This document shows, piece after piece, positions 2,664 to 7,145 of a DNA stretch of 38,173 nt (its first letter is position 1; each line of letters starts with the position of its first letter). This DNA is from a virus. The position numbers and the translations under genes were made by a program. Location: positions 1 to 38,173 of the IMG/VR virus record IMGVR_UViG_3300046009_006975; one strand, 5' to 3'. Below the pieces are notes generated by a model. That model was not told the DNA's origin. It saw only the letters and a list, made by a program, of their open reading frames with translations, and made no database searches.

Positions 2664-3208
2664 CACTCCCCACTCTCCTTTCCCATGTCGGCCATCGCCT
2701 CAACTCCCGACTGAACACAGCCGTTAGTCACAACCAATGACGGTGCCCAGCCGATACCGTTGACGAACTTCTCCGCAGACTCACGGGACCATGGATCGCA
2801 GTTCATGACCGTGCATCGCTCACGCCTGCGTTGCTGATCCCAGAAGTCGCCGTTTTCCACGAGGTAGTCGATCAACTCCTCGCGAGTCGCGAATGGTGGC
2901 GTAACCGGCGTGCCTTCGCTCACGGTCTCCCACACTTGGAACCACGTCGCGTCCTCTGAATCCCACGGACAGTAATACGCCCGCTCCGGTGGACCGCCGC
3001 TGTACTCCCAGAACTCCAGCTTGCGGCTTTCTTCGTCCATCCAATCTTCGCGCTCGCCAGCTTCCCACTTGGCGAAGTCTGCCTTCCAGTCCGCTGCGGC
3101 TTCCTCAAACGAGCCGCTGTACATCGGCTGATATCCGTCTTGCCCGTTGCGTCGAACAACAACAGGGTGATCCCAATTCGGCGGAACCATTCGCAATTCA
3201 CGTCCCAT
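2663..3208 (-). CDS. Conserved phage protein of unknown function (MGRELR type)
   Basis: 181 residues from ATG 3208, six bases after GGGGGAG. The alternative GTG at 3214 overlaps the upstream stop but fits the SD less well. The N-terminus (MGRELRMVPPNWDHPV), a central WETVSEGTPVTPPF segment followed by a Tyr/Leu-rich REELIDYLVENG stretch, and the late SRESAEKFV...GWAPS motif together match a protein I have seen widely in phages of many hosts, with no known biochemical role. The aromatic-rich middle suggests a folded globular protein. Family recognition is from memory, not a search. Confidence 0.75.
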   Translation of the reverse strand: MGRELRMVPPNWDHPVVVRRNGQDGYQPMYSGSFEEAAADWKADFAKWEAGEREDWMDEESRKLEFWEYSGGPPERAYYCPWDSEDATWFQVWETVSEGTPVTPPFATREELIDYLVENGDFWDQQRRRERCTVMNCDPWSRESAEKFVNGIGWAPSLVVTNGCVQSGVEAMADMGKESGE

Positions 3209-3210
3209 TT

Positions 3211-3521
3211 TCACTCCCCCAGTGCCGCGACGAGGCGGCGTAGATGGCCAAGAGATTTAATCTCGGTAAAGAATGAGGCCGTCCAGAGCGTTGCGCCAGT
3301 CTCGTCCAGATCGAGGCTCAACCCTTCCGTGTCGTTCCATAGCCAAGCGTCTTCGTCGTCTCCGAAGTACCGCCCATCAGCCTCAAGCCGCTCCCGCGTG
3401 ACCGGCTCGTCGTCGTCGGGGCGGACTGTGGCAAGGATGTGGTCTGCCAGCAGTCGCGTGTCGGCTGTCGGGATGTTTTTAGCACTCGCTTTGCTGCGTC
3501 AGTCAGGTCTTTCGGTTTCAT
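3211..3521 (-). CDS. Hypothetical protein interrupted by a one-base frameshift
   Basis: ATG 3521 overlaps the previous stop (ATGA). The first frame reads sensibly for 15 residues (ending RVLK) to a run of five A (plus strand TTTTT at 3476-3480). From there the -1 frame reads NIPTADTRLLADHILATV and continues through an acidic, Trp-containing protein to the TGA at 3211-3213, which overlaps the next gene's region as expected in this operon. In the uncorrected frame the product becomes Ser/Thr/Arg-rich and stops at 3318. A sixth A would give a clean 103-residue protein. So this is a homopolymer error, a recent mutation or a -1 slip on the A run. Function unknown. Confidence 0.6.
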
Positions 3522-3688
3522 TCGCTCGCCTCCTCGATCTCGCATCTGTATCCAATCAGCCGAAGCTCGTCGCGGCGATCTCCGGTCTTGTCTTCGGCGT
3601 CATACCACGCTGCCTGCTCGCTGATGTGCGACTCGCCCACGATTGCTCCGCTTGGGCTAAAGACGACCCATTGATTTTTGTATTTCAT
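3518..3688 (-). CDS. Small hypothetical protein
   Basis: 56 residues from ATG 3688 (MKYKNQWVVFSPSG), overlapping both neighbours by four bases (ATGA at each end). The N-terminal strand-rich part followed by an acidic helix looks like a small folded domain. Family not recognised. Coupling to neighbours at both ends is the main support for its reality. Confidence 0.55.
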   Translation of the reverse strand: MKYKNQWVVFSPSGAIVGESHISEQAAWYDAEDKTGDRRDELRLIGYRCEIEEASE

Positions 3689-3891
3689 TCGCTCGCCTCG
3701 CTTTCCATGATCAACCGGCGGCACTGGCCGGGGAGAAGGTCGGGGAATAGCCGCTCGTGCAAGGTGCCCACAGAGCAGCATGGAAACTGTCCGCTAATCC
3801 ACTCCCGATCAGAAATCACCCACTGTGGGCGACCATCGACAAACATCCACAGAGATTCGTTTCCATCCCGTGCCACCCAAAGCTCGTTCAT
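3685..3891 (-). CDS. Small hypothetical protein
   Basis: 68 residues from ATG 3891, with ATGA overlaps at both ends. Trp-rich (five Trp in the first 35 residues) with a PCC pair near residue 37. Family not recognised. It lies in the row of small early genes between the replication functions and the lysis region. Confidence 0.55.
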   Translation of the reverse strand: MNELWVARDGNESLWMFVDGRPQWVISDREWISGQFPCCSVGTLHERLFPDLLPGQCRRLIMESEASE

Positions 3892-4250
3892 CTCGCCCCC
3901 AGCATCTCAGTTAGCGGCCTGCCCCACTTGATTGACCATCTTTCAAATTGATAGGACTTCCGGCACATTCGCAGTTCATTCAACGCTTCCTGTGCCACCA
4001 TCGCGTTGCCGTCGTCAGGGTCGGGCGTGAGGGGCCTTGGGGTTGGCGTGAGAGTCGCCTGCTCGCGGCGGACGCCGAGGTAGCCGATGGCAATTGCTTC
4101 CCACTGGTCGATTGGCGGAGCGGTGTTTCCTTTTGTTACCCACACGTCGCCAGTCCACAGCGCTTGCTTCCAAGTCGCCCCGGAATCGTGAACTAGATCG
4201 TAAACGCCGGGTTTGTCGTCGCTCGGCCAGTAGTGCGTTGCCTCACTCAT
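3888..4250 (-). CDS. Hypothetical protein
   Basis: 120 residues from ATG 4250 (ATGA with the preceding gene). The first 60 residues have alternating aromatic and polar residues (HYWPS, GVYDLV, WKQALW, DVWVTK), typical of a small beta-barrel. A Pro/Thr linker at about 66-78 joins a helical C-terminus. No family recognised. Confidence 0.55.
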   Translation of the reverse strand: MSEATHYWPSDDKPGVYDLVHDSGATWKQALWTGDVWVTKGNTAPPIDQWEAIAIGYLGVRREQATLTPTPRPLTPDPDDGNAMVAQEALNELRMCRKSYQFERWSIKWGRPLTEMLGAR

Positions 4251-5494: not shown

Positions 5495-5929
5495 CTAAAA
5501 CGGAACGTCTTCGCCGCCCGTCACCTGCGACTCTGCCGCCTTCGTCCAATTGCTGTCGCCTTCCGCAACCTGCGGCGTCTCCGACTTCTCGCCCTTGCCG
5601 CCGATCAGCGTCAGCCGCTCAGCCGTCACCTTGAGTTTGCTTCGCTTCTGCCCGGTGGCCTTGTCGTCCCAGGTGTCCATCGTTAGCCGCCCTTCAATCA
5701 GGACCGAGCGGCCTTTCGCCAGATACTCGCCAGCGACCTCGGCATCCTTGCCCCAGAGCGTCACATCAACGAACGTGACTTCCTCTTTTTTCTGCTGGGT
5801 CGCCTTGTCGAACCACGTCCGGTTGACCGCGAGGCTGATTGACCCGACCGCCGAACCGTTGGGCAGGTACTTCGTCTCCGGGTCTCGCGTCAGGTTGCCC
5901 ATCAGGATCACTTTGTTGAAACTCGCCAT
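5495..5929 (-). CDS. ssb: Single-stranded DNA-binding protein
   Basis: 144 residues from ATG 5929 (MASFNKVILMGNLTRDPE), with GGGGAG upstream; the ATG at 5938 is too close to that SD. The OB-fold signature is complete: NKVILMGNLTRDPE, SLAVNRTW, VDVTLWGKDAEVA, GEYLAKGRSVLIEGRL. A short acidic tail ends in EDVPF, matching the bacterial SSB C-terminal tip that recruits repair and replication partners. It coats single-stranded DNA during phage replication and RecT/YqaJ recombination. Confidence 0.95.
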   Translation of the reverse strand: MASFNKVILMGNLTRDPETKYLPNGSAVGSISLAVNRTWFDKATQQKKEEVTFVDVTLWGKDAEVAGEYLAKGRSVLIEGRLTMDTWDDKATGQKRSKLKVTAERLTLIGGKGEKSETPQVAEGDSNWTKAAESQVTGGEDVPF

Positions 5930-5947
5930 CTCTCGCATCTCCCCGTG

Positions 5948-6397
5948 TTAGTCCACTGTTAAGCCCATGTCCTGCGCAATCTGCCGAACCACATCCTTGC
6001 CCGGCTTCCCCATGTCGTCATCACCCGCCATCGGGACGTAAGCCCGCGGCATCTTCCGCTGACAGAGCCTGAATAGGTCTGCGACCTCCGGGAATCGCGT
6101 CTCCGACGTTGCTAGCTCCACGACCGATAGATTGACCACCTTCGCCGGGAACCGCCGCAGAACGCAAAACCACGCGCTCAGTTGCTGCTTTGTGAAATTC
6201 GAGGTTCTTTTGAGCGTGGTGAGCGCCACCATCGCCCGGAAGAATTCCTTCTTCGATAGCCCAGTCGGCGAGGGCTGCGTTGTTAGCGGCCTCGCGGTCG
6301 TATTCGTGAGTTGCGAGTCCGCCACGCTTGCCGTGACCGGCGGCAGAGAAAACACCAGCCGCGTTGGCGTTGCCACTTCCGATTCGTCGCTCAGCAT
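5948..6397 (-). CDS. Phage replication-associated hypothetical protein
   Basis: 149 residues from ATG 6397, seven bases after GGGAG. After a polar 40-residue lead, a helical domain runs from LSKKEFFRAMVALTTLKR through LSAWFCVLRRFPAKVVN and ETRFPEVADLFRLCQRK. This looks like a folded protein, and its position between the initiator and ssb is where lambda-like phages place a helicase-loader-type protein. It overlaps the C-terminal 377 bases of the replication initiator frame. Function is inferred from position only. Confidence 0.6.
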   Translation of the reverse strand: MLSDESEVATPTRLVFSLPPVTASVADSQLTNTTARPLTTQPSPTGLSKKEFFRAMVALTTLKRTSNFTKQQLSAWFCVLRRFPAKVVNLSVVELATSETRFPEVADLFRLCQRKMPRAYVPMAGDDDMGKPGKDVVRQIAQDMGLTVD

Positions 6398-7145
6398 CGT
6401 TTTTCTCCCATGTTCGGACACACGCCTGCCAATCCTTGATTTGCCGCCCGTTGCTCATGACCCAGCCCCTGGCCGCGTAGTGATCCACGAACCGCTCGGG
6501 GTCCACCGCGTTCGCCCGCTCGGTGCAGTAGGCTCGAACTTCTTGAACGGTTGGCGGAACGAAGCGGCGCGAAGGCTTCGGTTTTTCCTTTGTGACACTC
6601 AGAGATGTTGCGCTAGCAACATCAGGGACAAAGTTAGGGTTAGGGTTAGGGTTAGGGTTGAATGTTGCCCACTTGTCTCCCGGTTCTTTCCCGGTTGTCT
6701 CCCCACTTACTTCCCGGTTGTCTCCCGGTTCTTTCCCCACTTTGTTAGTCAAATTTGACGTAGCAAGTGGGGAGGCAAATTCGGACGCTTCGCCTTCGTC
6801 GGTCGGGTTGTCGTCCAGTGTTTGGAACTGAGACGGCACGTTAATCCAGTACCGCCCAGGCTTCGCCTTGCCGCCGGGAATGTACGTCAGCCAGCCCGCT
6901 TCAATCGCCTTCTCCCGCTGGCGGTCCATCGCCTTGACGTTCGCAAACCCCGTCACGGCTGCCAGTTGCTCATTCCAGAACGTCACGGCGCTCGTGTAGT
7001 GCCGTGCGTCTTCCGTGTGAGCAATCACGCACAGGAGCGCAAAGACACCCTGCCCGTGTTCTTGGGCCACGCAGGTCTTAACCATCGACCGCACGGCCTT
7101 GTGCGCAAAGTGTGACGGTCGCTTCGGGTAGGTAGGTGCCGACAC
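6021..7145 (-). CDS. Replication initiator-like protein (winged helix, O-like)
   Basis: 374 residues from GTG 7145 with AGGGGA upstream. Residues about 12-105 look like a winged-helix domain (AHKAVRSMVKTC..., TGFANVKAMDRQREKAIEAG, WINVPSQF). A low-complexity centre at about 110-190 encodes repeated KEPGD and NPNPNPNPN. A C-terminal module at 195-260 (RRFVPPTVQEVRAYCTERAN...DHYAARGWVMSNG...DWQACVRTWEKN) is the replication-protein tail often seen in phage initiators. The DNA encoding the centre has iteron-like repeats, as lambda O does. The last 125 residues overlap another good gene and may be an untested read-through. Confidence 0.65.
   Translation of the reverse strand: MSAPTYPKRPSHFAHKAVRSMVKTCVAQEHGQGVFALLCVIAHTEDARHYTSAVTFWNEQLAAVTGFANVKAMDRQREKAIEAGWLTYIPGGKAKPGRYWINVPSQFQTLDDNPTDEGEASEFASPLATSNLTNKVGKEPGDNREVSGETTGKEPGDKWATFNPNPNPNPNFVPDVASATSLSVTKEKPKPSRRFVPPTVQEVRAYCTERANAVDPERFVDHYAARGWVMSNGRQIKDWQACVRTWEKNDAERRIGSGNANAAGVFSAAGHGKRGGLATHEYDREAANNAALADWAIEEGILPGDGGAHHAQKNLEFHKAATERVVLRSAAVPGEGGQSIGRGASNVGDAIPGGRRPIQALSAEDAAGLRPDGG
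6604..6772. other. Candidate origin of replication inside the initiator gene
   Basis: In order on the plus strand: hairpin GATGTTGC/GCAACATC with GCTA loop (6604-6623); four TTAGGG units (6634-6657); four CCCGGTT boxes at 6679, 6690, 6713 and 6724 (spacing 11, 23, 11), within two exact 18-base repeats (6675-6692, 6720-6737); two CCCCACTT boxes and an inverted copy (6701, 6735, 6765); and the AT-rich perfect palindrome GTCAAATTTGAC (6748-6759). Iterons plus AT-rich DNA within the initiator gene is how lambda ori is arranged within O. Confidence 0.6.

Follow-up and report, generated by a model that had tools for sequence, protein, structure and literature searches.

Replication origins lying inside the gene of their own initiator are already known in phages. 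The iterons and the AT-rich tract of the lambda ori are established within gene O, as they are in Stx phages (PMC7466680), and the O protein binds to a single strand of this AT-rich tract (PMC3349717). The oriL of phage SPP1 is located within gene 38 (PMC6316719), and the ori of phages TP901-1 and Tuc2009 within the replisome organizer gene (PMC8965321). Outside phages, the TrfA protein of plasmid RK2 binds one strand of the repeats in the opening region, and altering these repeats abolishes origin activity (PMC4081077). The DnaA-trio/DnaD element of the B. subtilis oriC also comprises opening-region repeats, read as a single strand by the initiator or the loader (PMC10201434).

The window, i.e. 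the whole stretch of DNA analyzed here, corresponds to an entire virus record of 38,173 bases. The preliminary description had pointed to an origin-like cluster within a replication gene, at the position that ori occupies in lambda gene O, and this assignment holds, the iterons and palindrome of the cluster being under DNA-level constraint. The cluster very likely represents an intragenic theta-type replication origin of the lambda O or SPP1 gp38 kind, with a short tandem array as its strand-opening region. This reading is based on the anatomy of the cluster, the constraint on its DNA, the recurrent order of its elements, and its low helix stability. The features of the locus are the following:

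5495-5938, minus strand: single-strand binding protein (SSB) of the replication module (PF00436, E 7.7e-34)
5948-6421, minus strand: next gene, which may encode a helicase loader given its position (phrog_2289 helicase loader, E 0.51, not significant)
6021-7145, minus strand: initiator gene, an open frame of 374 residues with an N-terminal winged helix, a disordered linker, and a small helical C-terminal domain
6390-6578, minus strand: C-terminal domain (residues 190-252), common to many phage initiators and proposed to recruit the replisome
6604-6623, no strand assigned: 8-bp hairpin GATGTTGC-GCTA-GCAACATC, just 3' of the array in the gene sense
6633-6659, no strand assigned: tandem hexamer array and proposed strand-opening element, (TTAGGG)4 on the plus strand and (CCCTAA)4 on that of the gene, where it encodes NPNPNPNPN
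6668-6742, minus strand: iteron array of seven AACCGGG/AAGTGGG boxes with an 11/12-bp period, in all three reading frames
6734-6773, no strand assigned: 40-bp imperfect palindrome around the core GTCAAATTTGAC (6749-6760), with an iteron box on each side, the two in inverted orientation
6822-7115, minus strand: N-terminal winged-helix domain (residues 11-108, from a structure model and fold comparison), proposed to bind the iterons

The initiator gene belongs to a replication and recombination block containing RecE-like, RecT-like, MazG, HNH, SSB, and resolvase-like genes, and its SSB and RecT/RecE-like neighbors count in favor of an origin. Against an origin stands the lack of a significant helicase or helicase-loader match among the window proteins scanned. 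Outside ssb, no named phage is close to this region at the DNA level. The change of sign of the GC skew anticipated for an origin does not occur at the cluster, which counts against one here; the skew is negative throughout the region and uninformative. The gene that follows (5948-6421) overlaps the last ~120 codons of the initiator (6021-6421) in another frame. The overlap holds nine differences to the locus L002, which encodes an 85%-identical protein; most of them affect a third codon position in the following gene and a first one in that of the initiator, suggesting that the tail of the initiator is probably not under selection.

The initiator protein has no Pfam match, and its only family matches are of unknown function, namely phrog_15768 (E 2.6e-19, residues 140-253, profile search) and, weakly, phrog_28809. 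Its relatives L016 and L012 return weak matches to O-like or DnaD-like families. The structure model comprises a winged helix (residues 14-108), a linker (113-190), and C-terminal helices (200-253). The linker has low pLDDT values, is presumably disordered, and coincides exactly with the origin region, so DNA signals could be carried there without harm to the protein. The closest folds to the N-terminal domain are those of primosomal DnaB (Z 9.2), staphylococcal Rep (7.6), and DnaD (7.4). As many unrelated winged helices score alike, this ranking supports, without proving, that the modeled protein is an initiator. Planctomycetia genome bins contain relatives of the N-terminal domain, as does plasmid pPLIM01 of Planctopirus limnophila, and for this reason the phage host is probably a planctomycete bacterium. 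The pPLIM01 relative (L015, positions 2923-3951, NC_014149.1, PLIM_RS21975) is a distant one annotated as a hypothetical protein; its gene contains 12-bp repeats and CCCTAACCTTAACCC at mid-length, making it a candidate initiator and origin of the plasmid. A copy of the N-terminal domain in a planctomycete genome (L028, about 1840-1930) stops just before the array, and CCTGACCCTATCC hexamers persist after the stop. The locus L003 (6001-8410) combines an N-terminal domain and origin as in the window with a C-terminal part of another kind, ahead of a DnaB-like gene; modules may have been exchanged there at the origin.

Along the gene strand, the 40-bp palindrome comes first, followed by the seven iterons, the four CCCTAA hexamers, and the 8-bp hairpin, all of them within the linker between the winged-helix and C-terminal domains. 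Four CCCGGTT boxes had been noted at the outset, and they are indeed present (starts at 6679, 6690, 6713, and 6724, spacing 11/23/11), as are two 18-bp direct repeats (6675-6692 and 6720-6737) that extend to 20 bp. The iteron array is nonetheless larger than those four boxes: on the plus strand, CCCGGTT alternates with CCCACTT in seven 11/12-bp units, and an eighth, inverted box lies at 6764-6771. The seven boxes fall in gene frames 1,1,0,2,2,1,0, and among 20,000 synonymous redraws, none reaches the number of seven boxes or the 11-bp repeat score of the actual sequence. Since all three frames are used and synonymous redraws do not reproduce the boxes, neither chance nor protein constraint explains them, and they are a DNA signal: direct repeats inside the initiator gene, selected as DNA. 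As the preliminary description had suggested looking for, the boxes are kept while codons vary. Of the 22 iteron-region residues that the window and L002 have in common, 21 are encoded by the same codon, as compared with 60% of those in the N-terminal domain. Iteron boxes and palindrome are both kept in L002 and L003. In L003, the loss of 23 bp of iterons shifts the frame, but the sequence that follows, GTGGGCAACATTCAACCCTA, stays the same and is translated in another frame; the junction GGGGGAACCTTCTTACCT of L013 and L014 is likewise read in two frames.

The 12-bp AT-rich palindrome reported earlier (GTCAAATTTGAC) is present and forms the core of the 40-bp imperfect one. Five consecutive codons of the latter are identical in three genomes against a background of 38% (p about 0.008 by itself), and its TACGTCAAATTTGACTAA is invariant in L002 and L003; the palindrome is seen only in the three closest relatives. 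It would possibly serve for autorepression or as an extra dimer site. Autorepression operators of iteron plasmids resemble this palindrome with its inverted boxes, and the hairpin lies in the transcribed strand, so that the repeats could be taken for regulatory sites of the replication operon, an operator and an attenuator hairpin, instead of an origin. This is very unlikely: the array occupies an internal part of the gene, remote from the start, and the recurrent order of iterons, array, and hairpin matches that of the experimentally mapped lambda and SPP1 origins. The 8-bp hairpin, also correctly reported before, has a counterpart in L002, GATTCTGC-TGGC-GCAGAATC, with two compensatory pair changes, and would have a role in the origin.

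The tandem array contains four perfect TTAGGG hexamers (6634-6657) in a period-6 tract (6633-6659) that is 100% matched and encodes NPNPNPNPN, as first described. Its excess is weaker than that of the iterons, as about 3% of codon draws give some perfect hexamer once NPNPNPNPN is fixed. With 50% G+C, the window array is less AT-rich than usual; by computed helix stability, only 0.2-0.5% of the record is as unstable as its region, and a tract predicted to open easily adjoins the iterons on their C-terminal-coding side. The relatives have CCTNNN units at this position, with CCT kept every six bases except in L014 (7,6,7,6) and L015. L002 has ATACCTATACCTAAACCTGTACCTATCCCT, made of CCTATA/CCTAAA units, in place of the TTAGGG array, while the counterparts are CCCTATCCCTATCCCTCCCCCT in L003, CCTATCCCTGAC units in L012, and CCTATT/CCTAAA units in L013. 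Among planctomycete-type relatives, (CCCTAA)4 recurs only in L119, next to different iterons. In all, 29 viral stretches contain the 21-base AACCCTAACCCTAACCCTAAC; three of them look like initiator linkers (L118, L119, and L128), the others being other ORFs, linkers, or non-coding ends. In the viral contigs L121, L134, and L136, (CCCTAA)n and then (CCCGAA)n directly follow a terminator-like CGCCCCTTCGGGGGCG-T run. The telomere repeat, singled out in the preliminary description, was hence rejected as a special origin signal, being found mostly outside initiators and missing from L002, and the telomere likeness of the tract is probably incidental. The four GGG tracts with 3-nt loops do fit the canonical G-quadruplex motif, as do L003, L012, and L119, i.e. 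four of the eight planctomycete-type sequences with the window, and the array might act as a one-strand G-quadruplex at the origin. However, neither TTAGGG nor the GGG tracts are kept in relatives: the motif is absent from the close relative L002 and from L013, L014, and L015, and in the wider set described below only the window array has it (1/59). G-quadruplex formation is an unlikely function for the array, its conservation as such was discarded, and we give next to no credence to its action at the origin. The tempting telomere and G-quadruplex story is thus unsupported and removed by the analysis.

The wider set comprises 80 viral loci collected from the C-terminal domain alignment alone, together with the window and three named phages. 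It includes 75 non-redundant members, 74 of them with enough upstream sequence, and repeats were not used in the selection. Repetition at the iteron spacing exceeds codon shuffling in 73 of 74 genes and synonymous resampling in 58, bearing in mind that short arrays can feed lags 12 and 24. For the joint count, the array was cut off first, with cut-offs of at least 11 for the iteron score and at least 9 for the array score. Arrays are found in 59 of the 74 genes, iterons in 55, and both in 42, as compared with 1, 1, and 0 of 68 controls, which are random stretches of other ORFs from the same loci. The iteron score is higher 5' of the array in 53 cases and 3' in 5. Compared with synonymous resampling, the excess of hairpins is weak, reaching the 5% level in 7/74 genes. 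Their position gives a stronger result: 26/59 arrays are followed within 60 nt by a stem of 6 bp or more, vs 5/59 when the 60 nt beyond are taken. The order of elements that recurs in phage initiators is iterons, then a tandem array of 5-9-nt units, often then a hairpin. From these sequence comparisons, the telomere-like repeat is one variant of a short tandem repeat that most of the 74 initiator genes carry at this position.

The array units are 6 nt long in 33 cases, 5 in 11, 7 in 7, 9 in 5, and 8 in 3. The mean G+C content is 29% for the arrays and 43% for their genes, and 42/59 arrays fall within the least stable tenth of the gene that carries them. The arrays might only reflect the protein, with codon reuse and replication slippage making the DNA of a proline-rich or charged low-complexity linker repetitive, the iterons alone being of importance. 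Perfect AACCCT repeats do encode NPNPNP linkers in unrelated phage proteins too, X-Pro is kept in most planctomycete-type relatives, and in 39/74 genes the lag-5/6 array is not clearly above synonymous resampling. Nevertheless, 5- and 7-nt units are common, lengths that no peptide repeat requires, and L003, L014, and L015 keep the CCT register while reading it in different frames. Arrays are also nearly missing from other ORFs (1/68), adjoin the iterons on one fixed side, and rank among the least stable parts of the gene, leaving a protein-only origin of the array rather unlikely. Array types group with the N-terminal domain clusters (0/2,000 permutations reach this grouping); as the array is physically linked to the N-terminal domain, common descent may explain it.

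If the cluster is an origin, the N-terminal winged helix of the initiator would bind the helically phased 11-bp iterons, thereby straining and opening the adjacent unstable hexamer array. The initiator would then hold one opened strand, and its C-terminal domain would bring in the helicase loader and the helicase. A bolder proposal, which we hold only tentatively and at less than even odds, is that the array is a sequence-specific single-strand docking site for the initiator. It would be a general third element between iterons and hairpin in phage in-gene origins, a phage counterpart of DnaA-trios or RK2 13-mers, with a unit type that co-varies with the DNA-binding domain. Membership in the DnaA-trios proper is not indicated, the units being mostly 5-9 nt and the adjacent boxes not being DnaA boxes by inspection. 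A DnaA-trio register of TAG every six bases was tried and fails in the wider set, where AAAGAG and gene-strand TTAGG arrays are common. While the in-gene origin kind is already known, the short-unit array as a common origin part is apparently new, as no description of it was found in the open-access full-text literature. In this light, the unusual dipeptide repeats in phage initiator linkers (NPNPN, KDKDK, RLGKD) become readable as origin signals, which could allow computational mapping of origins in many uncultured phages. How initiators open and hold the strand is still debated, and array unit lengths that travel with different DNA-binding domains provide natural test pairs.

The closest parallel is lambda, although no sequence relation was found between its O protein and the window initiator. 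The gene O sequence displays four iterons, an A-rich tract, and the inverted repeat GTCAGAG...CTCTGAC. In both phages, iterons, an opening tract, and an inverted repeat thus follow each other in this order within the linker of the initiator gene, between an N-terminal DNA-binding part and a C-terminal part contacting the helicase loader, these being proposed roles in the window protein. In contrast, the lambda iterons are 18-bp inverted repeats ~20 bp apart instead of 11/12-bp direct units, and its opening tract is A-rich instead of a hexamer array of 50% G+C. By their descriptions, SPP1 and TP901-1/Tuc2009 share with the window a direct-repeat origin inside the gene of the binding protein, and SPP1 oriL has an AT-rich unwinding element beside its direct repeats (PMC6316719). 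Finally, RK2 oriV with TrfA and the B. subtilis oriC resemble the window in the repeated elements of their opening regions, which are 13-mers or trinucleotides and lie outside the initiator gene.
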